DNA from: Haloglomus litoreum
GTDB lineage: Archaea; Halobacteriota; Halobacteria; Halobacteriales; Haloarculaceae
Assembly (NCBI RefSeq): GCF_029338515.1
Contig: NZ_CP119988.1
Coordinates: 620,001 to 684,000 of the forward strand
DNA: 64,000 nucleotides
Direction of reading: 5' to 3'
A program made the position numbers and the translations under genes. Under the pieces are notes generated by a model that saw nothing but the letters and a program-made list of their open reading frames with translations, was not told the DNA's origin and searched no databases. Positions within the stretch are counted from its first letter, which is position 1. Every line of letters starts with the position of its first letter. This document shows, piece after piece, positions 49,877 to 64,000 of the stretch.

Positions 49877-51559
49877 CTACATCATGCCGCCCATGCCGCC
49901 GCCCATACCGCCCATACCGCCCATGCCGCCGCCCATACCGCCACCGGGACCACCGGCGTCCTCCTCGCCCTCGGTGGACAGGTCGCCGGCGGCGATGATG
50001 TCGTCGATCTTCAGGACGAGCGTCGCCGCCTCGGTGGCGCTGGAGAGCGCCTGCTCCTTGGCGTGGGCCGGCTCGACGACACCCGCCTCGTAGGTGTCGA
50101 CCACGTCGCCCGTGAAGACGTCGAGGCCGGCGTGCTCGTCGCCGTCGGCGTGCGCGGCGCGCAGATCGACCAGCGTGTCGATGGCGTCCAGGCCGGCGTT
50201 CTCGGCGAGGACGCGGGGGACGAGTTCGAGCGCGTCGGCGAAGGCCTCGACGGCGAGCTGCTCGCGGCCCTCGACGGAGTCGGCGAAGTCGCGCAGTCGG
50301 GAGGCGACCTCGACCTCGGCGGCACCGCCGCCGGCGAGGACGCGGCCATCGCTCACGGTGGTCGCGACGACGTCGAGCGCGTCACCGATGCCGCGCTCGG
50401 TCTCGTCGACGACGTGGTCGGTGGAGCCGCGGACGATGAGCGTGACGCCGTGGCTGTCCTCGTCGCCCTCGACGAGGAACATGTCGTCGGCGTCGTCGCG
50501 GGTGACGTCGGCGTGGCCGAGGTCCTCGGGGCCGAAGTCGTCGAGGTCCGAGACGATGTTGGCGCCGGTGACCTCCTTCAGGAACTTCAGATCGGACTTC
50601 TTCACACGACGGGCCGCGAGGATGCCCTCCTTCGCGAGGTAGTGCTGGGCGAGATCGTCGATGCCCTTCTGGCAGAAGACGACGTCGGCGCCCGAGTCGG
50701 CGATCTGCTGGACCTTCTCCCGGAGGCGCTCCTCCTCCTTGTCGAGGAACTCCTGGAGCTGGTCCGGCGAGTCGAGGTTGATCTGGGCGTCGGCCTCGGC
50801 CTCCTCGACCTCGATGGGCTCGTTGACGAGGAGGACGTCGGCGTCCTCGACCTCGCTCGGCATGTCCGGGTGGGTCGGGTCCTTGTCGATGGCGGCGCCG
50901 TGCAGCAGCTCGGACTCGCCGACCGAGCGGCCGGTCTGGGTCTCGATGTTGATGAAGTCGAGATCGACGACGTGGGAGCCGTCCTCGGCCTCTACGGTGA
51001 CCGCCTGGACGGCGTCGACGATGAGCTGGGCGAGCAGGTCCTTGTTCTGCTCGGCGCCCTTGCCCGTCATCGAGGTCTCGGCGAGCTTCTTCAGCAGTTC
51101 GATGTCGTCGGCGTCGACCTCGGTGGCGATCTCGTCGACCTGCTTGCGGGCCTCCTCGCTGGCGAGGTGGAAGCCACGGATGACGTTCGAGGCGTGGATG
51201 TCCTGCTCGAGGAGGTCCTCGGCGTTCTTCAGGAGCTCGCCCGCGACCGCGACGGCCGTCGTCGTCCCGTCGCCGGCCTCGTCCTCCTGTGTCTCGGCGA
51301 CCTCGACGATCATCGACGCCGTCGGGTTGTCGATGTCCATCTCCTGGAGGATGGTGACGCCGTCGTTCGTGATGGTGACGTCACCCATCGAGGAGACGAG
51401 CATCTTGTCCATCCCCTTCGGCCCGAGCGTGGTCCGCACCGACTCGGCGACGGCCTTCGCCGCCTCGATGTTGTGGCTCTGGGCGTCCTTGTCCTTCATC
51501 CGCTGGGAGTCCTCCCCCAGGATGATCATCGGCTGCCCCTGCATTCGCTGCTGGCTCAT
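49877..51559 (-). CDS. ths: thermosome subunit (group II chaperonin)
   Basis: 560 residues. Group II chaperonin: RTTLGPKGMDKMLVSSMGDV, ITNDGVTILQEMDIDNPTAS, DGTTTAVAVAGELL (ATPase catalytic Asp in DGTTT) and the C-terminal Gly-Gly-Met repeat tail (about 15 residues), typical for archaeal thermosomes. Apical domain (about 210-380) is acidic. ATP-driven folding chamber of two eight-membered rings, cytoplasm. Haloarchaea have two or three paralogues; which one this is cannot be told. Strong TATA box upstream. Confidence 0.97.
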   Translation of the reverse strand: MSQQRMQGQPMIILGEDSQRMKDKDAQSHNIEAAKAVAESVRTTLGPKGMDKMLVSSMGDVTITNDGVTILQEMDIDNPTASMIVEVAETQEDEAGDGTTTAVAVAGELLKNAEDLLEQDIHASNVIRGFHLASEEARKQVDEIATEVDADDIELLKKLAETSMTGKGAEQNKDLLAQLIVDAVQAVTVEAEDGSHVVDLDFINIETQTGRSVGESELLHGAAIDKDPTHPDMPSEVEDADVLLVNEPIEVEEAEADAQINLDSPDQLQEFLDKEEERLREKVQQIADSGADVVFCQKGIDDLAQHYLAKEGILAARRVKKSDLKFLKEVTGANIVSDLDDFGPEDLGHADVTRDDADDMFLVEGDEDSHGVTLIVRGSTDHVVDETERGIGDALDVVATTVSDGRVLAGGGAAEVEVASRLRDFADSVEGREQLAVEAFADALELVPRVLAENAGLDAIDTLVDLRAAHADGDEHAGLDVFTGDVVDTYEAGVVEPAHAKEQALSSATEAATLVLKIDDIIAAGDLSTEGEEDAGGPGGGMGGGMGGMGGMGGGMGGMM

Positions 51560-52458: not shown

Positions 52459-53778
52459 ATGAGAGACCGGACCAGACAGCAGCGTCGCGGAGTCGTCCCG
52501 GCCGAGTCGGTGGACCGCCCTGCGCTCGGACTGGTCGCCGACCGGGCGAACCTGAAGCAACTGGTCCGGGCCGTCCTCCGTGCACAGCGACACGACTATC
52601 CTGTGCTGGTCTCCTGTCCCGAAGCGGATAGTTTCGTCGCGACCGTGGTGCGGCGGCTGGGGGCCACCCTCGTCGTTCCGGAGGGCTCCCATCCGGACAG
52701 CGAGGCGGTCCGGCGGAGCCTCACCGCCACCGCCCGCCGGCACGGCCATCCCGGACTGCTGTTCCACCGACGGCTCGACGAACGCGTGGCGTTCGAGGCC
52801 GTCGCCCCGGCGTTCGCGGAGCCCGGCGAGTACGTCGTCGAGGCGCCGACGACGGCGAGTACCTCCTCCGGGAGGTCGGTCCTGGTCGGCATCCCCGCGT
52901 TCAACGAGGAGGATGCCATCGGGGCCGTCATCGAGGAGTCGGACGAGTACGCCGATACGGTGCTGGTGGTCGACGACGGGAGCCGGGACCGGACCGGCGA
53001 ACGGGCTACCGAGGCCGGCGCCGTGGTGGTCGAACACGAGTCGAACCGCGGCTACGGTGGGGCACTCAAAACGCTGTTCCGGGAGGCCCGGCAACTGGAC
53101 GCCGACCACCTCGTCGTCGTCGACGGGGACGGCCAGCACGACACCACCGACATCCCGGAACTCGTCTCGACCCAGCGCCGGACCGGCAGCGAGATCGTCA
53201 TCGGCAACCGGTTCGGGTCCGGAACCGAGCCGCCGCTGTACCGGCGCGTCGGGCTCGGAATCATCAACGGGCTGATGGCCGGGTGCCTGCGTCTGTTCGA
53301 CGTGGGGTTCCGGGTTCGCGACGCCCAGAGCGGGTTCCGGGCCTACGATCGGCGGGCCATCCGGTCGCTCGCGGCCGACGCCTCCATCGGCGACCGGATG
53401 GACGCGAGCAGTGACATCCTCTTCCACGCCGCCAGGCAGGGGTACGACGTCACCGAGGTCGACACCACCATCACGTACGACGGCGAGGCGACGAGCACCC
53501 ATCCCCCGGTGGCTCACGGCCTGCGGGTCGTCAGGTCGATACTCCGAGCTGTGGCGCTGGAGCGCCCCATGACCGTCCTCGGCGCTCCGGGGTTCGTCGG
53601 TGCCTCGGCCGGCCTCGCGCTCGTCTACTGGGCGCTCGCCACCCTCGTCCGGACCGGGACGCTCCCGCACCACCTGACCCTCCCCTCCATCCTCCTGACG
53701 CTCGGCGGACTGCTCGCGTGCCTCTCGGCCGTGGTCGTCCGCTCGCTCGACGGCTACCTGGACCTCGACCACCACTGA
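52459..53778 (+). CDS. family 2 glycosyltransferase, polyprenyl-phosphate type, with N-terminal extension
   Basis: 439 residues. The GT2 core starts at about residue 139 (SVLVGIPAFNEEDAIGAVIE), with VLVVDDGSRDRTGE (metal/nucleotide site), VVVDGDGQHDTTDIPELV (DGDGQHD) and RVRDAQSGFRAYDRRAI, the pattern of dolichyl/polyprenyl-phosphate glucose or mannose synthases (DPM1/GtrB type). Two hydrophobic helices at the end (about 377-398, 404-427). The N-terminal about 135 residues contain an alpha/beta pattern (ALGLVADRANLKQLVRAVLR, DYPVLVSCPEADSF, LGATLVVPEG) that is not part of a GT2. It may act as a regulatory or second nucleotide-binding part. Starts the glycan locus. Confidence 0.88.
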   Translation: MRDRTRQQRRGVVPAESVDRPALGLVADRANLKQLVRAVLRAQRHDYPVLVSCPEADSFVATVVRRLGATLVVPEGSHPDSEAVRRSLTATARRHGHPGLLFHRRLDERVAFEAVAPAFAEPGEYVVEAPTTASTSSGRSVLVGIPAFNEEDAIGAVIEESDEYADTVLVVDDGSRDRTGERATEAGAVVVEHESNRGYGGALKTLFREARQLDADHLVVVDGDGQHDTTDIPELVSTQRRTGSEIVIGNRFGSGTEPPLYRRVGLGIINGLMAGCLRLFDVGFRVRDAQSGFRAYDRRAIRSLAADASIGDRMDASSDILFHAARQGYDVTEVDTTITYDGEATSTHPPVAHGLRVVRSILRAVALERPMTVLGAPGFVGASAGLALVYWALATLVRTGTLPHHLTLPSILLTLGGLLACLSAVVVRSLDGYLDLDHH

Positions 53779-53906
53779 TCCGGGGCCCCGAGGGTCCCTT
53801 GCAGCAGGGTCGTACCGCCGCGAGGGGTGACCATACCTGCTGGAAAGGCCGCTCTACCCCACGTATCCGTCGCATTACAATCTCGGAGGCCATCCTGGGG
53901 ACCCCC

Positions 53907-54869
53907 GTGACGACACGGATCGACCCCCCGACGAACGCGATCAGCTTCGACCTCGAACACTGGCACTCGGCGACCCTCGTCGCGGACTCGGTCCAGGACC
54001 CGGTCGACCGCATCGAGCAGTCGACGGCCATCGTCCTCGACCTGCTCGACCGCCACGATGTCCGGGCCACGTTCTTCGTCGTCGGTGAGGTCGCGGCGGC
54101 GTATCCCGACCTCGTCGGGCGTATCGCGGCTGCTGGCCACGAGATCGCCTCTCACGGGCACACGCATACCCCACTGTTCCAGCTGACACCGCGGGAGTTC
54201 GACGACGAACTCCGCCGTGCGGCAGCGGCTATCGGGGACGCCGCCGGCGTCGAGCCAGTCGGGTTCAGGGCACCGAACTTCTCGGTGACCCCCCGGACCG
54301 AGTGGGCGTTCCCGGTCCTCGAGGTCAACGGCTACCGCTACGACTCCAGCGTCTTCCCGGTGCGGACGCCGATGTACGGTGTCAACCGGGCCGCCATCGA
54401 ACCCCATCCGGTCGAGCCGGCAGCCCCGTTCCGGGCCGGGGACGACACGACGACCGAGGGGGGGCTGGTGGAGGTGCCGGTCGCGGTCGCTGGGCCCCTG
54501 CTCCGGCTTCCAGTCGCCGGCGGGTTCTACGGCCGGTTCCTGCCGACCCGAATCCTCCACTGGGCCATCGAGCGCATCCAGCGCCGGGGCGTCCCAGCCA
54601 CACTCTACTTCCACCCGTGGGAGTTCAACCCGGACGTTCCGACCGACGAGCCGGCGATCCACGAACGCTTCGTCAGCTTCACCGGTATCGACGGGGCAGC
54701 GGCGAAACTGGACCGCCTGCTCCAGTCGTTCGAGTGGGGCCCGGTCCGGAGCGTCGTCGAGCGGGTCCGGAACCCCTCCGCAGACGAACCGGGGCCCCAC
54801 GTGGCCCAGGACCGCCACGGGGAGCTCCGGTCGGTCCGGGAGACTGCGGCGACACGCCAGGGACGGTGA
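53907..54869 (+). CDS. polysaccharide deacetylase with C-terminal HPWE motif
   Basis: 320 residues from GTG 53907 (earlier in-frame codons are proline/arginine-rich and unlikely; ATTACAAT around 53872 is a possible TATA box). NodB motifs: NAISFDLEHWHSATL (motif 1, catalytic Asp), HEIASHGHTHTPLF (motif 2, metal-binding His pair), VGFRAPNFSVTPRTEWAF (motif 3, RxPxF), and the C-terminal YFHPWEFNPDVP, a feature of the exosortase-linked group that carries DUF3473. No signal peptide, therefore cytoplasmic or acting on a nascent, lipid-linked glycan. Next gene starts 5 nt on. Confidence 0.88.
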   Translation: MTTRIDPPTNAISFDLEHWHSATLVADSVQDPVDRIEQSTAIVLDLLDRHDVRATFFVVGEVAAAYPDLVGRIAAAGHEIASHGHTHTPLFQLTPREFDDELRRAAAAIGDAAGVEPVGFRAPNFSVTPRTEWAFPVLEVNGYRYDSSVFPVRTPMYGVNRAAIEPHPVEPAAPFRAGDDTTTEGGLVEVPVAVAGPLLRLPVAGGFYGRFLPTRILHWAIERIQRRGVPATLYFHPWEFNPDVPTDEPAIHERFVSFTGIDGAAAKLDRLLQSFEWGPVRSVVERVRNPSADEPGPHVAQDRHGELRSVRETAATRQGR

Positions 54870-54874
54870 TACCG

Positions 54875-55951
54875 ATGGCGCGACCACAACACCGAACCGA
54901 ACCCGGCCGGGTGACCGTCCAGCGGTGCACGGACCCGACGGGCTGGGACGCGTTCGTCCGGGACAACGACGGGACCCCGTTCGCCCTGTGGGGCTGGGGC
55001 GATGCCGTGGAGACGTATCCCCACGACCGCTGGTACCTCACCGCGCGGGCCGAGGATGACATCGTCGGGGGGCTCCCGCTGTTCCACATCGAGAGCCGGC
55101 TGTTCGGCGACAAGCTCGTCTCGCTCCCGTTCACCTCCCAGGGGGCCCTGCTGGCCAGCGGCCCGCACGCCGAGGCGGCGACACGGGCCCTGCTGGACCG
55201 GGCGATAGACCTGTCCGACGACCTGGGGGTCGACTTCGCCAGCATCCGAGCGACCGACCTCGGCGAGCGGGAGCGGTTCACCCACCGGAACCGGTTCGTC
55301 ACGTTCCGCGTCCCGCTCGATGACGGTCCCGGACGTGTCTGGGAGCGGGTGAAGTCGAGTCGACAGCGGCAGATACAGGGGGCACGCGAGGACGACGCGC
55401 TCACGTTCGAGGTCGGCACGTCGCTCTCGGCACTCCGCGACTTCTACGACCTCTACCTCCGGTCGATGCGGGGTCACGGGAGTCCACCCCACACCTTCGA
55501 GTTCTTCAGGGTGCTCTGGGACCGACTCCACGACGACGGCCACCTCAGACTCGGACTGGTCCGCCACGAGGGTGATGTCATCAACGGCGTCATCGACCTG
55601 GCGCTCGGCGAGCGGGTCATCCAGAAGGGGGTCGTCACGGACTTCGCCCGGCGGGACCTGAACGGGGGGAGCCTCATCCACTGGAAGTCGCTTGAGTGGG
55701 CCGCCGAGAACGGCTACCGGAGCTACAACCTGGGCCGGACCCGGGAGGCGTCCGGGGTGTATATATTCAAGAAGAGCTTCGGCGGCGAGAAGGTCTGGAT
55801 CGACGATTATCACTATTTCCCGGACGGAGAGACACAGCCCCCCGACCCGGAGGATCGCCCCTACGACCTGGCCAGACGTGCCTGGCGCCGTCTCCCGATT
55901 CCCGTCACGCGCGTCGTCGGCCCGAAGATACGCCGGGGGCTCAGCCTCTAG
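54875..55951 (+). CDS. FemAB/GNAT-type transferase
   Basis: 358 residues from ATG 54875. Two GNAT-like halves: DGTPFALWGWGDAVETYPHD (N-terminal), then GGLPLFHIESRLFGDKLVSLPF, and in the second half NGVIDLALGERVIQKGVVTDFARRDLNGGSLIHWKSLEWAAENGYRSYNLGRTREASGVYIFKKSFGG, a typical FemAB C-terminal pattern. Bacterial relatives add aminoacyl groups to peptidoglycan or occur in PEP-CTERM/exosortase loci. In an archaeon without peptidoglycan, the substrate is probably a sugar amine, perhaps on the product of the preceding deacetylase. The following gene starts 1 nt after its stop. Confidence 0.82.
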   Translation: MARPQHRTEPGRVTVQRCTDPTGWDAFVRDNDGTPFALWGWGDAVETYPHDRWYLTARAEDDIVGGLPLFHIESRLFGDKLVSLPFTSQGALLASGPHAEAATRALLDRAIDLSDDLGVDFASIRATDLGERERFTHRNRFVTFRVPLDDGPGRVWERVKSSRQRQIQGAREDDALTFEVGTSLSALRDFYDLYLRSMRGHGSPPHTFEFFRVLWDRLHDDGHLRLGLVRHEGDVINGVIDLALGERVIQKGVVTDFARRDLNGGSLIHWKSLEWAAENGYRSYNLGRTREASGVYIFKKSFGGEKVWIDDYHYFPDGETQPPDPEDRPYDLARRAWRRLPIPVTRVVGPKIRRGLSL

Positions 55952-55952
55952 G

Positions 55953-57131
55953 ATGCACGTACTCTACGTGAGCGGACAGGACTCGGGCGGTCTCCCCCAC
56001 TACACCGCGGAACTGGCGAACGCGGTCGCGGCGCACGCCGACGTCACCGTACTGAAGCCCAGCGAGACGAGTGCGGACGACGTGTTCGACGACGCGGTGG
56101 ATGTCCGGAGCGTGTTCCGACCGCTCGGACTCTCCGTGGCCAGGATCTCCAGCCGGGAGTTCGCCCCGCTCCGGACCGCGCGTGGCATCCTCTCGTACCG
56201 CTACCTGCGCGAGATACGTGCCATCGACCCGGACCTCGTCCACGACGCCACCGACCTGTTCCCACAGGTGAAGCTGTTCCTGAAGGCCTACGGCATCGAC
56301 CGGCGGTATCCGCTCGTCGTAACCCGCCACGAGGTCGAGCAGAACCGGTTCTCGCTCGCGCGCCCCCACCACGCGGCCGAGGAGTTGGCCGACTGCCTGA
56401 TACCGGACCTCCGTTCGGACGGCTGCGTCGTCCACACGCGGAACCAGCGACAGGCCCTCGTCGACCGGGGCGCGTCGGCTGCCGACATCCGGGTCATCCC
56501 GCACGGTGCCTACTCCCTGTTCGGAACACACGAGGACATCGACAGTACGCCCGAGGAGAACTGTCTGCTGTTCTTCGGGAACATCATCCGGTACAAGGGC
56601 ATCGTCCCGCTCATCCGGGCGATACCGCTCGTGAAGGAGCGGTTCCCGGATGTCAAGCTGCTCGTCGCCGGCAAGGGACGACTCCCGCCCGAAACCGCCC
56701 CGATACTCGAAGCCCACGAGGAGAACTTCGAGGTCCACAACCGCTTCATCCCGAACGAGGAGGTCCAGGAGTTCTTCGAGCGCGCGGCCGTCGTCGTCCT
56801 CCCCTACAAGCGCCGTGCCGGTGGGATGAACGGCCACAGCGGCGTGCTGTCGGCGGCCCTCTCGTTCGGGAAACCGGTCGTCACGTCGCGTGCCGGGGAC
56901 TTCCCGTCGCTGGTCGGGGCGACCGGCTGCGGTGTCACCGTTCCCTCGGAGGCCCCCGAGGCCCTGGCCACGGCCATCTGCCGGGTACTGGGGGACGATG
57001 ACGCGAGGGCGGAGATGGCGGCCGCCAGTCGCCGGCTCGCCGACGAACTGTCCTGGGAGCACGTCGCCGACCAGCACCTCAGCCTCTACGAGACGGTCGT
57101 CGAGACCGACCGTACCTCTCCCGAATCATGA
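55953..57131 (+). CDS. family 4 (GT1-type) glycosyltransferase
   Basis: 392 residues. N-terminal Rossmann half with MHVLYVSGQDSGGLPHYTAELA (GGLPHYT for nucleotide-sugar and acceptor), C-terminal half with IRVIPHGAYSLF, LLFFGNIIRYKGIVPLIRAIPLV, LLVAGKGRLPP, FFERAAVVVLPYKRRAG and NGHSGVLSAALSFGKPVVTS (the E/G motif near the active site, here SGVLSAALSFG). Retaining GT-B enzyme. The stop overlaps the GH16 start by 4 nt (ATGA). Confidence 0.9.
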   Translation: MHVLYVSGQDSGGLPHYTAELANAVAAHADVTVLKPSETSADDVFDDAVDVRSVFRPLGLSVARISSREFAPLRTARGILSYRYLREIRAIDPDLVHDATDLFPQVKLFLKAYGIDRRYPLVVTRHEVEQNRFSLARPHHAAEELADCLIPDLRSDGCVVHTRNQRQALVDRGASAADIRVIPHGAYSLFGTHEDIDSTPEENCLLFFGNIIRYKGIVPLIRAIPLVKERFPDVKLLVAGKGRLPPETAPILEAHEENFEVHNRFIPNEEVQEFFERAAVVVLPYKRRAGGMNGHSGVLSAALSFGKPVVTSRAGDFPSLVGATGCGVTVPSEAPEALATAICRVLGDDDARAEMAAASRRLADELSWEHVADQHLSLYETVVETDRTSPES

Positions 57132-57970
57132 GCCGACGAAACGGCGGGCTGTCGAGGCGCCACCTGCTGGCCACCGGACTCTGCGGGCTCGTCACGGGCT
57201 GTTCCAACGCTCCGGCCGCCAGCTCACCGGATGGCGAGACGGCCACGACCGGTGCCGGCGAGCGCTCCCAGCGAGGGGATGTCCCGGCGCGTCGCCCGGT
57301 CGACGTCTCGGAGATGGAACTCGTGCTCGAGGATACCTTCAGCGCCAGGCAACTCGATCGGTCGCGCTGGCGCGATAAGTACCCCTGGGACGCGCGGACC
57401 CACAACTACGACGGCTACGCCGCCCCAGAGAACGTCACCGTCGAGGACGACCGGCTCGTCCTGCGGGCCGAGGACCGGCCACAGGGTGGGATGCGGTTCT
57501 CGACCGGTGTCGTCTCGGCGAAGGAGGTGTTCGAGCCCGGCTACTTCGAGGCGAGCATCAAGATTCCGCCGCCGGTGCCCGGGTTCTGGCCGGCCTACTG
57601 GCTCACGTCGGCCTCCTACCATCCCCCGGAGTTCGACATCTTCGAGTTCTACGACGGGACGCCCGAGGCGAAGATGAGCTACCACTTCATCGGCGAGGAC
57701 GGTTCCGAGGAGCGTGTCCGGGGGACGTACACGGGACCGGATTTCAGCGCCGACTTCCACACCTACAGTCTGGACTGGGACCCGCCGGAGAAGGTCGTCT
57801 GGTACATCGACGGCGTCGAGCGATTCCGGTACGAGGGGCCGTACGTCAGCGACGAGTACTGCTGGTTGATCCTCAACTTCGGTATCGACCCGCCGTGGGG
57901 TGCGACGCCGGAGCTACGGCACCTGCCGGCGACCTACGAGGTCGACTGGATCAGGTGCTGGGAGCGGTAG
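57128..57970 (+). CDS. GH16 family glycoside hydrolase, Tat-type lipoprotein
   Basis: 280 residues. Twin Arg10-Arg11 (LSRRHLLATG), hydrophobic stretch and lipobox VTGC (Cys25), then a Ser/Thr/Gly linker: a surface-anchored enzyme. The catalytic sandwich has VLEDTFSARQLDRSRW at the start, ASIKIPPPVPGFWPAYWLT and the ExDxxE centre as EFDIFEF, then DFHTYSLDWDPPEKVVWYIDGVERFRY. GH16 hydrolyses or transglycosylates beta-1,3/1,4-glucans, galactans or related polymers; it might trim or attach the locus' own polysaccharide. Co-translated with the GT4 gene. Confidence 0.9.
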   Translation: MSRRNGGLSRRHLLATGLCGLVTGCSNAPAASSPDGETATTGAGERSQRGDVPARRPVDVSEMELVLEDTFSARQLDRSRWRDKYPWDARTHNYDGYAAPENVTVEDDRLVLRAEDRPQGGMRFSTGVVSAKEVFEPGYFEASIKIPPPVPGFWPAYWLTSASYHPPEFDIFEFYDGTPEAKMSYHFIGEDGSEERVRGTYTGPDFSADFHTYSLDWDPPEKVVWYIDGVERFRYEGPYVSDEYCWLILNFGIDPPWGATPELRHLPATYEVDWIRCWER

Positions 57971-58083
57971 TGACACCCCATGACCGGACACCAGCAGACA
58001 GGCGTCGGGCGAACGGCGGCCGGACGAGGGCGCCACGGGACGGGACCGGAGTGGACCGTGAGCACGGGCCGCCCCGGCGATCG

Positions 58084-58791
58084 ATGGGCGACGCCACCGA
58101 CGGACGGGGGGTCTCCCGGATGCTGAGCCGTGCCCGCGACCGGAAGGAGCTCCTCGCCGAGATCCTCGAGCAGGTCCGCCCGACGTCGATGCTCGATGTG
58201 GGGTGTGGAACGGGCGAACTCGCCCTCCGGCTCGTGGAGATCGCTGGCGTCGAGGAGTGCGTCGGGGTCGATGTCTCCGCGGCGGCCGTCGAGCGGGCGG
58301 AGGAGCACGGGCTGACCGCCTACCAGGTCGACGTGGAGGACGAGCGCCTCCCGTTCGAGGACGACCGGTTCGATGTCATCACCGCCAGCGAGGTCATCGA
58401 CTACCTCTGTGACCCGGGGAACCTGTTCCGCGAGGTGCAGCGCTGTCTCCGGCCCGGCGGCGTGTTCGTCCTCACGACCCCGAACCTGGCGTCCTCGCAC
58501 AACCGGATCGCCCTGCTCGCCGGGCGCCTCCCGCTCCCGATGCAGGGACAGTTCGACCGGCTGGCCGACGGGGACGAGCGCGCGACACCGCTCTCCAAAC
58601 GCTGTTCGCTGTACACCTGCGGCGTGCTTCACACGGTGCTCGAGGAACACGGGTTCGTGGTCACCGAGGTCCTCGGTGCCAGCGGGGAACGCCCCGACAG
58701 CTCCCTCCTCCACGCGTTCGTCGAGACCCTGGCCGTCCAGTGGCCTCCGCTCAGTTACCGGAACGTCTTCGTCTGCGAGCACCCGCCCTGA
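58084..58791 (+). CDS. class I SAM-dependent methyltransferase
   Basis: 235 residues from ATG 58084 (GTG 58051 in frame adds 11 residues). Motif I SMLDVGCGTGELALRL, motif II CVGVDVSAAAVERAEEHGL, motif III DRFDVITASEVIDYLCDPG, and RCLRPGGVFVLTTPNLASSHNR, as in methyltransferases of glycan or lipid modification. The 3' end overlaps the convergent ATP-grasp gene by 41 nt. The substrate is unknown; location in the locus suggests methylation of a sugar or polyprenyl intermediate. Confidence 0.85.
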   Translation: MGDATDGRGVSRMLSRARDRKELLAEILEQVRPTSMLDVGCGTGELALRLVEIAGVEECVGVDVSAAAVERAEEHGLTAYQVDVEDERLPFEDDRFDVITASEVIDYLCDPGNLFREVQRCLRPGGVFVLTTPNLASSHNRIALLAGRLPLPMQGQFDRLADGDERATPLSKRCSLYTCGVLHTVLEEHGFVVTEVLGASGERPDSSLLHAFVETLAVQWPPLSYRNVFVCEHPP

Positions 58792-59986
58792 GGCCCGGGA
58801 CCAGGTTCCGAACGGCGCGCGCGAACGGGCGGGGGTCGTCCCACCGGAAGTAGTCGAACCGCGGCGTGGTGACCAGCGAGGACAGGACCGACCACGAGGC
58901 CGCCGGCAGCGACGGACGGTCGACCAGCGGACAGTCGGTCCGGGCGACACTATCGAGGTACTCCAGCTCGCCGTAGAGGAGGTGACTCCGGACGCCGCTC
59001 TCGTATGTCGGGTCGATGGCGTCGCGGCGCCCGGTCGCCAGCAGCCAGTAGTAATGCGGGAAGTCCGCGCCCGCACGGACAGTACATGGGAGCGACCGCC
59101 ACATCCGGGGGTTGATCTCGGTCAGGACGAACTCGCCCGTCTCCGCGTCCTCCATGAACTCGATGCACGCCAGGCCGTGCCAGTCGAGGTGGTCGAGGAG
59201 CCGTCGGGCCACGGTCTCCAGTCGCGGCAGGTGGACGGACTCGCGGTAGACGCTGCCGCCGCCGGTGTATGAGTCCCCGCGGATCTGTCGGTGCTGGAAC
59301 GTCGCGACCGGGTCGCCGTGGTCGTACAGCGCCGCCACCATGTACTCGTCGGCCTTCTCCACGAACTGCTGGACGAGGGGTTCGTGGCCGAGCAGAGCGT
59401 CCCGGAGCGCCTGCCTGTCCGGTTCGACACCAGGGTCGAGGTAGGTCACCTCGTGGATGGGGTCGCACTCCGACTCGGCGTACGTCGGCTCGTAGCCGGC
59501 GACACGCAGCGGATAGCGGGGTTTGACGACCTGTCTCCGGTCCCAGTCCTCGACATCGCCGAGCAGTCGCGTCTCGGGCACCGGGACGCCGCTCGCCTCG
59601 GCGGCCTCGGCCAGCCGGAGCCCATCGTGGGCCATCCGCAGCAGCTCGGGTGGCTGCCACAGCTCGGTGACGTGTGGGGAGAACTCGTCGGCGTACCGCG
59701 ACAGCAGGTAGGCGTCCTCCTCCCGGCAGGGGACGACCGCGCGCACGTCCGACCGTGCCGCCAGCGCCACGAGCGCGTCCCGGTACGCGAGCAGATCTTC
59801 GTGGACCGACGTGACGGGGACCAGCTCGTCGCAGTACCGCGAGGCGAGCGTCGGGCGCTCGGGGCGTTCGGCGGCGGCCACGACGTTGATGTCGCGCCGC
59901 CCGAGCGACCGGACACACGCCAGCGAGGACGGTGAACCGTTCACCGGGACGAGTACGGACCGGGCCGGCGAGCGCCCTCGTGCCAT
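58751..59986 (-). CDS. ATP-grasp family ligase
   Basis: 411 residues. N-terminal pre-ATP-grasp domain (SVLVPVNGSPSSLACVRSLGR, VVAAAERPERPTLASRYCD), central ATP-grasp domain with VVKPRYPLRVAGY (lysine of the ATP site), LVQQFVEKADEYMVAALYD and EFVLTEINPRMWRS (E-I-N-P-R metal-binding motif). C-terminal basic. The family ligates a carboxylate to an amine or thiol; in surface-glycan loci such enzymes add amino acids to sugars. Convergent overlap of 41 nt with the methyltransferase; TATA box TTTAGTATAT just upstream. Confidence 0.88.
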   Translation of the reverse strand: MARGRSPARSVLVPVNGSPSSLACVRSLGRRDINVVAAAERPERPTLASRYCDELVPVTSVHEDLLAYRDALVALAARSDVRAVVPCREEDAYLLSRYADEFSPHVTELWQPPELLRMAHDGLRLAEAAEASGVPVPETRLLGDVEDWDRRQVVKPRYPLRVAGYEPTYAESECDPIHEVTYLDPGVEPDRQALRDALLGHEPLVQQFVEKADEYMVAALYDHGDPVATFQHRQIRGDSYTGGGSVYRESVHLPRLETVARRLLDHLDWHGLACIEFMEDAETGEFVLTEINPRMWRSLPCTVRAGADFPHYYWLLATGRRDAIDPTYESGVRSHLLYGELEYLDSVARTDCPLVDRPSLPAASWSVLSSLVTTPRFDYFRWDDPRPFARAVRNLVPGLRAGARRRRRSGN

Positions 59987-60010
59987 ACCCCTGCTCCCCC
60001 ACCACGAGAA

Positions 60011-60020
60011 TTTAGTATAT
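60011..60020 (-). promoter_or_regulatory. TATA box for the ATP-grasp gene
   Basis: On the minus strand ATATACTAAA lies 25-34 nt before ATG 59986; leaderless spacing in an otherwise GC-rich gap. Confidence 0.55.
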
Positions 60021-60133
60021 CCCGATTACGCGCGGTCGAGCGGTACGCGCCGGGCTCGCCCGCAGACTAGGCCCGCGTTTCCCGGCACCGGCGGCCCGGG
60101 GCCGGCGCCCGGGCCGGCGACCGGAATCCGGGA

Positions 60134-62059
60134 CTACTCGGTGACGCTGCCGGTCGCCGTCGCCGTCGCGCCGTCGCCGTCGGTCACCGTCAGCGAGAGA
60201 TCGAACGTCTCGCCGTCCGCGTGCTTGATGCGGAAGTAGTTCACGTCGGCGGCCGAGTCACCACTCACGGCCGTCCGTCTCGCGTCGACGACGGCGCCCG
60301 TGTCGTCGCGGACCTGGACGAGGACCCGCGCGAGGTCGCCGTCGTCGTCGGCGACGACCCAGTTGGCCACGATGTCGGCGTGCGGGTTCGGCGATCCGCT
60401 CTCGCTCACCTCGAACCGGTCGACCGCCGGCGGCGTGGTGTCGTCGGTGGTGTCGTCGGTGGTGTCGTCGGTGGTGTCGTCGGTGGTGTCGTCGGTGGTG
60501 TCGTCGGTGGTGTCGTCGGTGGTGTCGTCGGTGGTGTCGTCGTCAGAGGGCTTCTCCGGGCCGGGCTTCGACTCGTCGACGAGGGAGTCCGGATCGACGT
60601 ACTGGTCGTCGACGAACGTGTCGATCGCCCCCTCGTAGCTGAGGTCGGTGATCTCGCCGTAGAACCAGAACCCGTCGCCGCCGGAGGCGTGTTCGGTCCC
60701 TCCGGCGGTGTATCCATCCTCGGCGACCCACTCGTCGCTCTCGCCGTCGCTCAACTCCCCGTCGTCGACGCGGATGTGCCCGCCGCTGGTCTCGAAGGCG
60801 TAGGTCACCGGATCGCCGTCGTCCGAGCGCACCCAGAAGTAGTGCTCGGTCAGGTCCCCGGTGTCGCTCTCGGTCGTCGCGGAGACGGTGTCGCTCTCGC
60901 CGGACTCGTTGCCCGCGGCGTCGACCGCGGTGACCGCGAAGTCGTAGGTGGTGTCCGCGTCGAGGCCCGAGACGGTCACCGACGTACCGGAGACCGACCG
61001 GTCCAGACCGCCGTCGACGTAGACGTTGTAGCCGTCGACGCCGGTGTCGTCGGTGGCGGCATCCCACGCGAGGCTCACGGCGTCGGAGCGGATCCCCGTC
61101 ACGTCGAGATTCGTCGGGTCGCTCGGCGGGGTCGTGTCCGCCGTGTCGTCGGAGCCGCCGCTCCCGGGGGCGTACTCCCAGACCCGGACCCAGTCGACCA
61201 CCATCTCCTCGTCCCAGGACTCGGAGTAGTCGGGACTACCGACCTTGTCGATGATGTTGGTCAGCATCATGTAGTGGTCCCCACCGTTGCGGAGCGCCTC
61301 CAGCGCCTCCCACTCGGTGATCGAGCCGACGTGCATCCCGTCGAAGTAGAACGCGACGCGGTCGCTCCGCCACTCCGCCGCGTAGACGTGGAACCCCTCG
61401 GTCAGGTCGTCCGCCGAGTCGTACTCGACATCGAGCGAGTCGTGGGTCGAACTGTCGTCGGAGATGGTCGAGGTCGAGTAGTGGACGTGGTACTCCGCGC
61501 GGTGGGTGTCCTCCCAGCCGCCGTCGTTCTGGAAGATCTCGATGACGTCGATCTCCGGCGGCCAGTCCTCCGAGTTCGGCTTCGTCCAGAACGCCGGCAA
61601 GACGCCCGTCCGGTCGGGCAGCCTGATTCTCGCCTCCCAGTAGCTCCCCTCGAAGGCACCGAACGTCTCCTTCGTGTTCACCGCGGAGGTCCTGACGGAG
61701 TCGGGGTCCCCGGAGTGCGAGAACGAGAGGTGGAGCCGCCCGTCACGCACGGCGACCTCGTCGGCGTCGATCCGGCCGGCGGAGTTCCGGTCGGTGGTGC
61801 CCCAGCCGTAGCCGACCTCCCACTTCGAGGTATCGAGCGCCCCGGCGTCGAAGGTGTCCTCGAACGCGAGTTCCCAGTCCTCGGGGGTGGACGGGCCACC
61901 GGTGGCTCCCCGGGTGAGACTCGTGCCCAGTCCGACGCTGCCCAGCGTGGCCGCGCCAGCTGCGGCGAACTTCAGGTAGTTCCGGCGGTCGACTGTGAGG
62001 TCGTCCGCCCCTTCGTCACTGTCCGTCCCATCAGTAGCTTCGTCCTTCCCGTCAACCAT
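60134..62059 (-). CDS. secreted multidomain GH16 enzyme (Tat signal, GH16, FN3, Thr/Asp repeat linker, Ig-like)
   Basis: 641 residues. Acidic N-terminus and Tat signal (LTVDRRNYLKFAAAGAATLG, Arg25-Arg26). GH16 catalytic domain about 55-300 with PPEIDVIEIFQ (ExDxxE nucleophile/acid-base), VLPAFWTKP and EWRSDRVAFYFDG. A fibronectin type III domain (about 315-395, SDPTNLDVTGIRSDAVSLAWDAATDDTG). A beta-domain (about 405-500, HYFWVRSDDGDPVTYAFETS). A low-complexity linker of nine DDTT units. A C-terminal Ig/PKD-like domain (DRFEVSESGSPNPHADIVANW). Surface or exported polysaccharide hydrolase, more elaborate than the lipoprotein GH16 of this locus. The operator-like inverted repeat lies upstream. 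Confidence 0.9.
   Translation of the reverse strand: MVDGKDEATDGTDSDEGADDLTVDRRNYLKFAAAGAATLGSVGLGTSLTRGATGGPSTPEDWELAFEDTFDAGALDTSKWEVGYGWGTTDRNSAGRIDADEVAVRDGRLHLSFSHSGDPDSVRTSAVNTKETFGAFEGSYWEARIRLPDRTGVLPAFWTKPNSEDWPPEIDVIEIFQNDGGWEDTHRAEYHVHYSTSTISDDSSTHDSLDVEYDSADDLTEGFHVYAAEWRSDRVAFYFDGMHVGSITEWEALEALRNGGDHYMMLTNIIDKVGSPDYSESWDEEMVVDWVRVWEYAPGSGGSDDTADTTPPSDPTNLDVTGIRSDAVSLAWDAATDDTGVDGYNVYVDGGLDRSVSGTSVTVSGLDADTTYDFAVTAVDAAGNESGESDTVSATTESDTGDLTEHYFWVRSDDGDPVTYAFETSGGHIRVDDGELSDGESDEWVAEDGYTAGGTEHASGGDGFWFYGEITDLSYEGAIDTFVDDQYVDPDSLVDESKPGPEKPSDDDTTDDTTDDTTDDTTDDTTDDTTDDTTDDTTDDTTPPAVDRFEVSESGSPNPHADIVANWVVADDDGDLARVLVQVRDDTGAVVDARRTAVSGDSAADVNYFRIKHADGETFDLSLTVTDGDGATATATGSVTE
60435..60542. 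repeat. 9 x 12-bp tandem repeat coding for DDTT units
   Basis: GTGGTGTCGTCG (plus strand) repeats nine times without change over 108 bp. It encodes Asp-Asp-Thr-Thr units of the GH16 linker. Perfect sequence identity implies recent slippage, so unit number probably varies between strains. Such acidic Thr-rich linkers are often O-glycosylated. Confidence 0.85.
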
Positions 62060-62074
62060 CGTCCGGTAATGTGT

Positions 62075-62087
62075 GATTAATAGTATA
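62075..62087 (-). promoter_or_regulatory. TATA-like element of the large GH16 gene
   Basis: On the minus strand TATACTATTAATC lies 16-28 nt before ATG 62059. It sits between the start codon and the inverted repeat at 62090-62121. Confidence 0.5.
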
Positions 62088-62089
62088 CC

Positions 62090-62121
62090 GGTTATTACCG
62101 GTCAAACGCGAGGTAATAACC
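62090..62121. promoter_or_regulatory. operator-like inverted repeat GGTTATTACC / GGTAATAACC
   Basis: Arms GGTTATTACC (62090-62099) and GGTAATAACC (62112-62121) are exact reverse complements with a 12-nt spacer. The repeat lies just upstream of the GH16 TATA element, where activators or BRE-overlapping repressors bind in archaea. The sub-motif CCGGTTATTAC, as its complement GTAATAACCGG, recurs at 63007-63017 before the LicD-type gene. Confidence 0.5.
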
Positions 62122-62300
62122 CGGTAGCTACGGTTGGTCACGTTTGGCCATCAGATAGCTACGTTTCGTCTGGATCCGCACCCGACGGGGTCCCGACTCC
62201 GTCCCATCCGGAGCCCGGCGAGAAGGAACAGCGTACTGCCACTCGGCGGTGGTCAGGAGCTCGTTACCGGTGCCGGCCGGGCTGGCGCGCGACCCGTGCG

Positions 62301-62978
62301 TCAGGCGAGCAGGTCCGACGGCCCCCGCTCGTGCACCGCGCCGTCATCGGTCAGCGACCACTCCGCGACCGGAGTCTCCCAGTCCCCGTACCTGATGGCG
62401 AGGTAGTCCTCCAGCTCCGTGGGCGTATGGACGCCGAGTTCCTCATCGTACCGTAGCTCCTCGAGGTGCGACAGCGGGAGCCGGAGGGTGAGCACCTCCA
62501 CCAGGAGCGATTTCGGGAACGACGTCATCTCCACGTGCCCGCCGGTGGACCGTGCGTACCACTGGATGAACGGGTAGAGCCGGTCGACGACGGTCGTGAG
62601 TCCCGGGACCCCGAACTCCTCCCTGACGCGTGACTGGGCCGTCCAGGCGCACTCGCCGTCGCGCCGGAAGACCATCACGTCGACGATGCGCCTGTTCGAC
62701 CGGGAGCGTGGTCCCCGGTCCGTCCGAGGGAGGAACTGGTACTTGTACGTGTGCCCGCGGTAGGATCTGCTCTGGACGTGATAGCCCTTCGACTCGATCT
62801 CCGGCCGGAGCGCCTCGATCACGTCGACGTCCGAGGCCCACACCGCCAGGTCGATGTCGTCGTCGTACTTCGTGAGTTCACCCGACCGGACCAGCGTCAA
62901 CAGCGTCCCGCTCTCGACCCAGTGGGTGACGTCGTGCTCGGCGAACAGCGACGTCACCCAGGATAGCTGCTCGTCCAT
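62301..62978 (-). CDS. LicD-type nucleotidyltransferase-fold protein
   Basis: 225 residues from ATG 62978. LicD family features: HDVTHWVESGTLLTLVRSG, TKYDDDIDLAVWASD (the DxD metal site, Asp39-Asp43), then RRIVDVMVFRRDGE, and the C-terminal GDWETPVAEWS (tail typical of LicD). Bacterial members transfer phosphocholine or phosphoethanolamine to cell-surface glycans; eukaryotic fukutin is related. A phosphodiester-linked decoration is a reasonable guess. Regulatory motif shared with the GH16 gene in the upstream gap. Confidence 0.85.
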   Translation of the reverse strand: MDEQLSWVTSLFAEHDVTHWVESGTLLTLVRSGELTKYDDDIDLAVWASDVDVIEALRPEIESKGYHVQSRSYRGHTYKYQFLPRTDRGPRSRSNRRIVDVMVFRRDGECAWTAQSRVREEFGVPGLTTVVDRLYPFIQWYARSTGGHVEMTSFPKSLLVEVLTLRLPLSHLEELRYDEELGVHTPTELEDYLAIRYGDWETPVAEWSLTDDGAVHERGPSDLLA

Positions 62979-63006
62979 GACCCCACCGAGACGCGGTGCT
63001 GTGCTT

Positions 63007-63017
63007 GTAATAACCGG
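63007..63017. promoter_or_regulatory. GTAATAACCGG motif before the LicD-type gene
   Basis: On the plus strand GTAATAACCGG at 63007-63017, 28-39 nt before the start at 62978 on the minus strand. It repeats the sub-motif of the GH16 operator and overlaps the expected TATA position, so it may be a TATA/BRE element, an operator, or both. Confidence 0.35.
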
Positions 63018-63037
63018 CCTACTGGGCGGTAGCCGGG

Positions 63038-64000
63038 TCACCAGGTGAGCCGGCGTGGGTTGGCGATGATCCGGCGGGGGTCGGGACCGAACCACCACCC
63101 GTACAGCATCGTCGAGCGGGACTTCAGGCGGGCGATGGTCTCGGCAGAGACGACCTGTCGCTCGGCGAGCAGGCTCCGGCGCTGGCCGTACAGCCGCACG
63201 AGGACGCGCCACACCGGTCCGACCCGCCCCCGCGCGGTCACGACGCCGTAGGCGGACCAGACGAGTGTCGTGAACAGTACGTAGCGCCACGGGAGGTTCC
63301 TGACGGCGAGCCGGATGCGGTTCTCGATCCCCCGCTCGCGGGTCTCCGCCGGTGGGAGGCGTGCCTTCGGGGTCTGCTTGTGTGAGACCACGACCTCCGG
63401 CGTGTAACGGATGTCGTAGCCCGCATCGAGGAGCCGCAGGGAGAGGTCGTGTTCCTCGAAGCCGTAGACGAACTCCGGCGGGAAGGCGCCGACGTCGTCG
63501 ATGACCTCGCGGCGGATGGCGTTCCCGACCCCGCAGAACGACGACGCACGGTAGGGCTCGCTCGGCGGTGTGTCGAGGTCCGGCGGGTCGGGAATCTCCA
63601 TCAGGATGGGGTCGCCCGTCTCGTGACTCCGGCTCTGGAAGGCGAGGACGCCGACGTCCGGAGCGGCGCTGAACAGCGATACCATCCGCCCGGTCGCCTC
63701 CGGGTCAGGGAGCACAGCGTCGTCGTCGATGGTCACGAGGAACTCGCCCGCGGCCCGCTCGTAGCCGAGGTTCCGGGCCTTCGGCACCCCCATCCGCTCG
63801 TCGAACTGGTGGTAGTGGACCCGTTCGAGGTCGAACCGGCCGCCCGGCTCGAACATCGCCCCCGTCTCGTCGGTCGAACTGCTGACGACCACGACCTCCA
63901 GCGGGCGGTACGATTGCTGGAGGATGGAGTCGAGCGCCGCCGCGAGCTCGGTCGGCCTGTTGTACGTCGCGACGACGTAGGAGACGAGCGGGTCCGTCGC
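63038..64000 (-). CDS. family 2 glycosyltransferase, 5' end outside window
   Basis: 320 residues visible; the frame is open through the right edge. Begins (at the edge) ATDPLVSYVVATYNRPTELA, a normal GT2 start, with ALDSILQQSYRPLEVVVVSSS, FLVTIDDDAVLPDPEATGRM (DDD metal/nucleotide site), FCGVGNAIRREVIDDVGAF and FGFEEHDLSLRLLDAGYD-like VYGFEEHDLSLRLLDAGYDI (ED motif). C-terminal helices are amphipathic (YVLFTTLVWSAYGVV). Typical inverting GT2 of cell-wall or S-layer glycan synthesis. Possibly cotranscribed with the LicD-type gene downstream (59 nt gap). Confidence 0.9.
   Translation of the reverse strand, partial: ATDPLVSYVVATYNRPTELAAALDSILQQSYRPLEVVVVSSSTDETGAMFEPGGRFDLERVHYHQFDERMGVPKARNLGYERAAGEFLVTIDDDAVLPDPEATGRMVSLFSAAPDVGVLAFQSRSHETGDPILMEIPDPPDLDTPPSEPYRASSFCGVGNAIRREVIDDVGAFPPEFVYGFEEHDLSLRLLDAGYDIRYTPEVVVSHKQTPKARLPPAETRERGIENRIRLAVRNLPWRYVLFTTLVWSAYGVVTARGRVGPVWRVLVRLYGQRRSLLAERQVVSAETIARLKSRSTMLYGWWFGPDPRRIIANPRRLTW

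Follow-up and report, generated by a model that had tools for sequence, protein, structure and literature searches.

The window analysed here is a 64,000-nucleotide stretch of DNA from the haloarchaeon Haloglomus litoreum, comprising bases 620001-684000 of a single-contig 4.70-Mb genome. It contains most of a glycan locus (52459-64000 in window numbering, where position 1 is base 620001 of the contig, with a continuation past 64000) in which genes for a polysaccharide N-deacetylase and a FemAB-type transferase stand side by side (Table 1). A thermosome gene (49877-51559) lies upstream of the locus, and an unrelated RidA gene after the DUF1616 gene marks its end. Its G+C content is 69.1%, against 70.9% in the DNA before it. 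The ten genes listed for this region in an earlier note are all present, in the order claimed; the last of them, a GT2 glycosyltransferase that the note had placed inside the window, starts just outside. With moderate confidence, we regard the whole as a mobile, flippase-type locus for exopolysaccharide synthesis in haloarchaea, equipped with a cassette for N-deacetylation and, probably, tRNA-dependent N-aminoacylation.

Table 1. Genes of the locus, in window numbering
Feature	Position	Strand	Matches and remarks
GT2a: GT2, dolichyl-phosphate-sugar-synthase type, extra N-terminal domain	52459-53778	+	TIGR04182 103 bits, PF00535 77 bits
Polysaccharide N-deacetylase (CE4 + DUF3473)	53907-54869	+	TIGR03006 218 bits, PF11959 95 bits, PF01522 84 bits
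FemAB/FemX-type double-GNAT transferase	54911-55951	+	TIGR03019 186 bits
GT4 glycosyltransferase	55953-57131	+	PF13692 81 bits
GH16 glycanase, N-terminus like that of a twin-arginine translocation (Tat) lipoprotein	57128-57970	+	PF00722 64 bits, catalytic motif EFDIFE
S-adenosylmethionine-dependent methyltransferase, accessory	58084-58791	+	PF13489 85 bits
ATP-grasp enzyme, carboxylate-amine ligase type	58751-59986	-	Weak Pfam ATP-grasp matches, NF009405 50 bits
Large GH16 glycanase, Tat-like signal, fn3 domain, DDT-repeat linker	60134-62059	-	PF00722 49 bits, PF00041 47 bits, motif EIDVIE
LicD-like nucleotidyltransferase-fold protein (weak)	62301-62978	-	PF04991 19.6 bits, cut-off 22.6
GT2b (GT2)	63038-64015, start just outside window	-	PF00535 71 bits
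DUF2206 membrane protein, GT-C fold	64003-66324	-	Pfam; predicted model matches GT-C enzymes
Wzx-type flippase	66392-67816	-	Pfam; past window end
Short DUF1616 protein	68103-68861	+	Past window end

The deacetylase has the features of the CE4 and DUF3473 families, and its motifs SFDxEHW, SHGxxH, RAPNFS and YFHPWEF are conserved or invariant in alignment. Its association with FemAB is widespread. When 242 haloarchaeal genomes were scored with TIGR03019 and TIGR03006, FemAB scores fell into two groups, 173-211 bits in 18 genomes versus at most 134 bits in the remainder, while deacetylases scored 195-224 bits in 17 genomes and a separate five exceeded the cut-off. FemAB directly follows the deacetylase in 14 of the 17 genomes with this deacetylase clade; the genes are about 11 kb apart in two, and the last (G047) has no FemAB near the deacetylase. 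Around the pair recurs a set of GT2a, DUF1616, GT4, two GH16 types or a beta-helix protein, a YdjM-like hydrolase, an FkbM methyltransferase, ATP-grasp, a flippase and DUF2206, the beta-helix protein taking the place of GH16 in one subgroup. About a dozen families of the locus are found together again in relatives that belong to several haloarchaeal families, and they therefore cluster more than expected by chance. The comparison of gene order suggested in the earlier note thus reveals a conserved neighbourhood, and a chance one is not borne out.

Named carriers include Haloferax mucosum, Haloprofundus marisrubri, Halorubellus salinus, Halobaculum marinum and Haladaptatus salinisoli, and several copies of the cassette reside on plasmids. 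In phylogenetic trees, the haloarchaeal sequences of both proteins form their own clades beside bacterial ones (support 97 and 100%), and the deacetylase and FemAB trees are congruent (Mantel r 0.71, p 0.0001, 19 haloarchaeal loci). The sister of the window sequence in both trees is Halorubellus, a member of a different family, so that a transfer of the whole cassette between families is probable. One FemAB match labelled Gammaproteobacteria (L115, SLLK01000178.1, 1-4571) was rejected as bacterial: carrying DUF2206, FemAB, GT2 and deacetylase genes, it looks like a fragment of a haloarchaeal exopolysaccharide locus on a contig that is likely misbinned. Outside the haloarchaea, methanogens of the same phylum (G374, G278 and G348) have a deacetylase of this type directly before FemAB, with no sortase nearby. 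In the bacterium Chelatococcus, the pair is divergent and an exosortase is absent within 12 kb. The cassette is therefore older, or more mobile, than its exosortase link. The methanogen deacetylases beside FemAB lie in open reading frames of roughly 560 residues that include an additional deacetylase-like portion at the N-terminus (L134:13483-15180, L136:6505-8187 and L139:6772-8454).

The fold of the FemAB protein offers a clue to what it does. The best structural match of its AlphaFold2 model (pLDDT, a per-residue confidence score, 91.5) is FemX 6snr, with a Z-score of 28.6 and a root-mean-square deviation of 3.8 over 303 aligned residues. Ranks 1-11 of the comparison are all FemX/FemA or aminoacyl-tRNA-dependent peptide synthases (Z 26.7-28.6), ranks 12-21 and 23 are MprF/aminoacyl-phosphatidylglycerol synthases (Z 19-22), and other tandem-GNAT or CoA-dependent enzymes score about 18 or less; Foldseek returned the same order among its top matches. 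A sequence profile of the family searched against PDB sequences likewise found FemX lipid II glycyltransferase (4e-10) and aminoacyl-tRNA-dependent peptide synthases (2.5e-9). Further, K287 of FemAB, invariant in 17 of 17 sequences, aligns in HMMER with K305 of FemX, which is the catalytic lysine of the Weissella enzyme (PMC12945691). By analogy, we infer that the window FemAB uses aminoacyl-tRNA as its donor.

Relatives of the locus add a second line of evidence. One subgroup has, next after FemAB, a gene for a protein of about 215-220 residues. In this protein, an N-terminal hydrophobic stretch precedes basic residues, after which come a coiled-coil-like segment and a domain matching C-Ala. 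A profile of these proteins finds C-Ala structures of alanyl-tRNA synthetase in the PDB (2zvf, 2.4e-9; 3g98, 4.1e-8), and they fall just below the cut-off of Pfam PF02272 (DHHA1; best 24.3 of 25.9 bits). Across the 242 genomes, nine free-standing copies scored 109-342 bits, versus at most 62 bits for full alanyl-tRNA synthetases and AlaX-like proteins, and a FemAB gene adjoins all nine. C-Ala follows FemAB in eight genomes (G236, G209, G134, G216, G183, G165, G039 and G113), with an overlap of 4-8 bases in G209, G236, G216, G134, G183 and G039, and is divergent from it in G166. A family search placed C-Ala beside FemAB in G406, G409 and G411 also, as it is in Halocatena, and G413 has a C-Ala fragment after FemAB. 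Conversely, every FemAB of that clade found in these searches is accompanied by C-Ala. The FemAB of G166 belongs to the window's clade, and the association therefore spans both clades. Halococcus-like genomes, Halocatena and G183 share the row GT2a, deacetylase, FemAB, C-Ala, FkbM and ATP-grasp, the deacetylase being of the window's clade. Isolated C-Ala binds tRNA-Ala with a Kd of about 1 uM (PMC3158927), and in these sister loci the membrane-anchored C-Ala protein may bring tRNA-Ala to FemAB. Together, the FemX fold and this partner in relatives support the earlier suggestion of an aminoacyl-decorated glycan. In G113 (L184:8798-9915), the FemAB gene before C-Ala is split over two reading frames, through either a sequencing error or gene decay. 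On the Halobaculum marinum plasmid, a tryptophanyl-tRNA synthetase-like gene (L121:23401-24558) adjoins deacetylase-FemAB-GT4; such a gene was not seen beside the pair elsewhere, and it was therefore dropped as evidence for aminoacyl-tRNA.

The remaining genes fit an exported polysaccharide. No signal sequence is apparent by eye in the deacetylase or FemAB, and both would therefore be expected to work in the cytoplasm, the site of charged tRNA. The N-termini of the two GH16 proteins in the window look Tat-like, again as judged by eye, and the catalytic ExDxxE residues are intact in these proteins and in all 18 GH16 proteins compared, in keeping with the exported GH16 enzymes proposed earlier. 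In the larger one, a long DDT repeat linker precedes the C-terminal domain. Reading past 64000, as the earlier note had advised, brought to light the flippase and a GT-C candidate, DUF2206, and no archaeosortase in the locus. The DUF2206 model (pLDDT 72) matches GT-C enzymes (oligosaccharyltransferases, AftA and Dpy19) at modest TM-scores of 0.3-0.46; we therefore treat the protein as a GT-C transferase and have set aside a Wzy polymerase. The modelled likeness to GT-C enzymes that use polyprenyl-linked donors would fit the dolichyl-phosphate type of GT2a. GT2a itself is present again in most related loci and scores below the equivalog cut-off of TIGR04182, the model for AglJ, the first-step N-glycosylation transferase (103 versus 325 bits). 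GT4 lies immediately downstream of FemAB in many related loci, where the ATP-grasp gene is also recurrent. The methyltransferase has a single relative among the loci compared, and relatives of the LicD-like protein were sought there and none found; the LicD-type label given to the latter is weak, its Pfam score being sub-threshold.

We propose the following course. Judging from the enzyme families, GT2a would charge dolichyl phosphate with a sugar, and the glycosyltransferases would build a lipid-linked oligosaccharide in the cytoplasm. The deacetylase, whose family and motifs are evident, would then remove N-acetyl groups from an amino sugar of this presumed intermediate. FemAB, with its fold and lysine, could transfer an aminoacyl group from aminoacyl-tRNA onto the freed amine or a nearby group; in sister loci, the membrane-anchored C-Ala protein of the adjacent gene would deliver tRNA-Ala to it. 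Finally, again on the families represented, the flippase would turn the unit outward, the GT-C protein would join or transfer it, and Tat-exported GH16 enzymes would trim the polymer.

The earlier note had compared the region with bacterial exosortase (XrtA/PEP-CTERM) loci, and an archaeal counterpart, making a polysaccharide for the anchoring or processing of archaeosortase substrates, has some points in its favour. TIGR03006 and TIGR03019 are indeed the best models for the deacetylase and FemAB and match over their full length, and annotated XrtA loci on plasmids of Nitratidesulfovibrio, Vibrio and Sphingomonas show the same order, deacetylase then FemAB. Archaeosortase is also encoded in 26 of the 26 related haloarchaeal genomes tested. 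Yet it lies away from the pair in every one of them, with no archaeosortase or exosortase near; in the window genome the nearest is 0.47 Mb from the locus. (That genome has two archaeosortase-family genes in tandem, at contig positions 1146444-1148370, where most relatives tested have one.) Both scores are below the equivalog cut-offs (218.3 against 276.2 bits and 186.2 against 260.35 bits), the haloarchaeal proteins form separate clades, and the Chelatococcus pair has no exosortase close by. Among the ten window proteins scanned, no XrtA-specific glycosyltransferase, chain-length determinant, kinase or amidotransferase rose above cut-off (TIGR04063 gave the GT4 protein 50 bits against 442), and no sorting-signal model matched; the DUF2206 and flippase proteins were scanned with Pfam only. 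Nor were the five haloarchaeal deacetylases above the TIGR03006 cut-off (L086-L090, from G162, G041, G114, G180 and G033) upheld as genuine members of the XrtA system: their branches fall among bacterial XrtA sequences, their genomes hold no strong FemAB match, and the usual single archaeosortase there is unlinked to the deacetylase. They represent a second, separate transfer. We consider an archaeal XrtA counterpart very improbable and reject it on the sub-threshold scores, lack of sortase linkage and separate clades. The locus resembles XrtA loci because of a shared deacetylase-FemAB cassette, and we see no ground for keeping the link to protein sorting.

Two other explanations concern FemAB itself. 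It could be an N-acyltransferase that draws on acyl-CoA and puts a fatty or other acyl group back on the deacetylated amine, giving an N-acylated exopolysaccharide. Its domain is named Acetyltransf_6 in Pfam, most GNAT folds use CoA, and an acyl carrier protein and an AMP-binding enzyme lie nearby in one bacterial XrtA locus. Caulobacter offers a parallel in HfsK, which has been placed in one pathway with the deacetylase HfsH and for which acyl transfer to exposed amines has been proposed without a known donor (PMC5362036). We nevertheless think this unlikely, given that aminoacyl-tRNA-dependent enzymes rank well above CoA-dependent ones in the structure comparison, the FemX catalytic lysine is retained and relatives have a tRNA-binding partner. 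Less probable still is an ordinary exopolysaccharide locus in which FemAB acts elsewhere, for example on a nucleotide sugar or peptide, and the neighbourhood reflects general clustering of glycan genes. Glycan loci do mix freely, the methyltransferase and LicD-like genes are not conserved, and one subgroup has exchanged GH16 for a beta-helix protein; the pair, however, has been retained by three distant groups and is inherited together. Several points weigh against the tRNA-dependent reading that we prefer. C-Ala is absent from the window locus and, within the clade of the window FemAB, is confined to G166, so that the tRNA argument reaches the window via homology and fold. In a Halococcus-like genus (g35), 6 of 10 species are without the C-Ala cassette; the amino acid of Halococcus walls is glycine, not the alanine predicted from C-Ala (PMC4187196); and bacterial FemX-type proteins of unknown donor, such as HfsK, do exist (PMC5362036). 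The main uncertainty of our account is thus the tRNA step, for which the C-Ala evidence comes from relatives and not from the window.

In bacteria, tRNA-dependent assembly of surface polymers is established for peptidoglycan and lipids. The open-access literature, to which our search was confined (subscription papers lay outside its scope), yielded no archaeal polysaccharide for which it is reported, and nothing relevant on either a polysaccharide locus with FemAB and deacetylase in archaea or a C-Ala partner encoded as a free-standing protein. We speculate, putting it at not quite an even chance, that surface polysaccharides of archaea receive amino acids from aminoacyl-tRNA by way of a FemX-like enzyme that, fed in some lineages by a dedicated membrane-anchored C-Ala copy, loads amines exposed by the neighbouring deacetylase. 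If so, archaea would divert amino acids from translation to a surface glycan and do so with a seemingly undescribed tRNA-recruiting subunit. Enzymes would then be at hand for chemistry of the N-glycyl-glucosamine type, which was described for Halococcus in 1979, and the aminoacylated sugars of its walls, long known, would become open to genetic test. In genus g35, 4 of 10 species have the C-Ala cassette. Halococcus is the likeliest identity of this genus, since a plasmid of H. dombrowskii finds its best DNA matches there, at up to 90% identity. For annotation, it matters that the TIGR03006/TIGR03019 pair can occur without exosortases and is the mark of a cassette for glycan modification.

Among known systems, XrtA/PEP-CTERM loci share with the window the placing of FemAB directly after the deacetylase, and that of Nitratidesulfovibrio also has GT4, flippase and ATP-grasp genes. 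In contrast, no exosortase, chain-length determinant, autokinase or TIGR03013 transferase was found in the window locus, whose proteins score below the curated cut-offs and which instead carries a dolichyl-phosphate-type GT2, the GT-C protein DUF2206, DUF1616 and GH16. Weissella FemX and Staphylococcus FemX/FemA resemble the window FemAB in a double-GNAT fold over almost the full length and in an FK motif with the catalytic lysine. They differ in sequence (14-18% identity), and FemAB adjoins a glycan deacetylase in an archaeon without peptidoglycan, with a separate C-Ala protein in some relatives. The Caulobacter holdfast pair HfsH-HfsK similarly joins a glycan deacetylase and a FemX-like GNAT protein in one proposed pathway, the latter perhaps acting on freed amines, although HfsK is a cyclic di-GMP effector and the available text of PMC5362036 reports no tRNA-binding partner. 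The acidic exopolysaccharide of Haloarcula hispanica also depends on a dolichyl-phosphate-sugar GT2 (AepG) for an exported polysaccharide, while the text on its HAH_1202-1214 cluster does not mention a deacetylase (0 occurrences; PMC9943897). A further comparison is with the wall heteropolysaccharide of Halococcus morrhuae, with its N-glycyl-glucosamine bridges (Steber and Schleifer 1979, cited in PMC4187196). The amino acid there is glycine, and we found no report of the enzymes that make it. An aminoacylated amino sugar in a haloarchaeal polymer is the type of product predicted for this locus, a precedent that by analogy is suggestive only.

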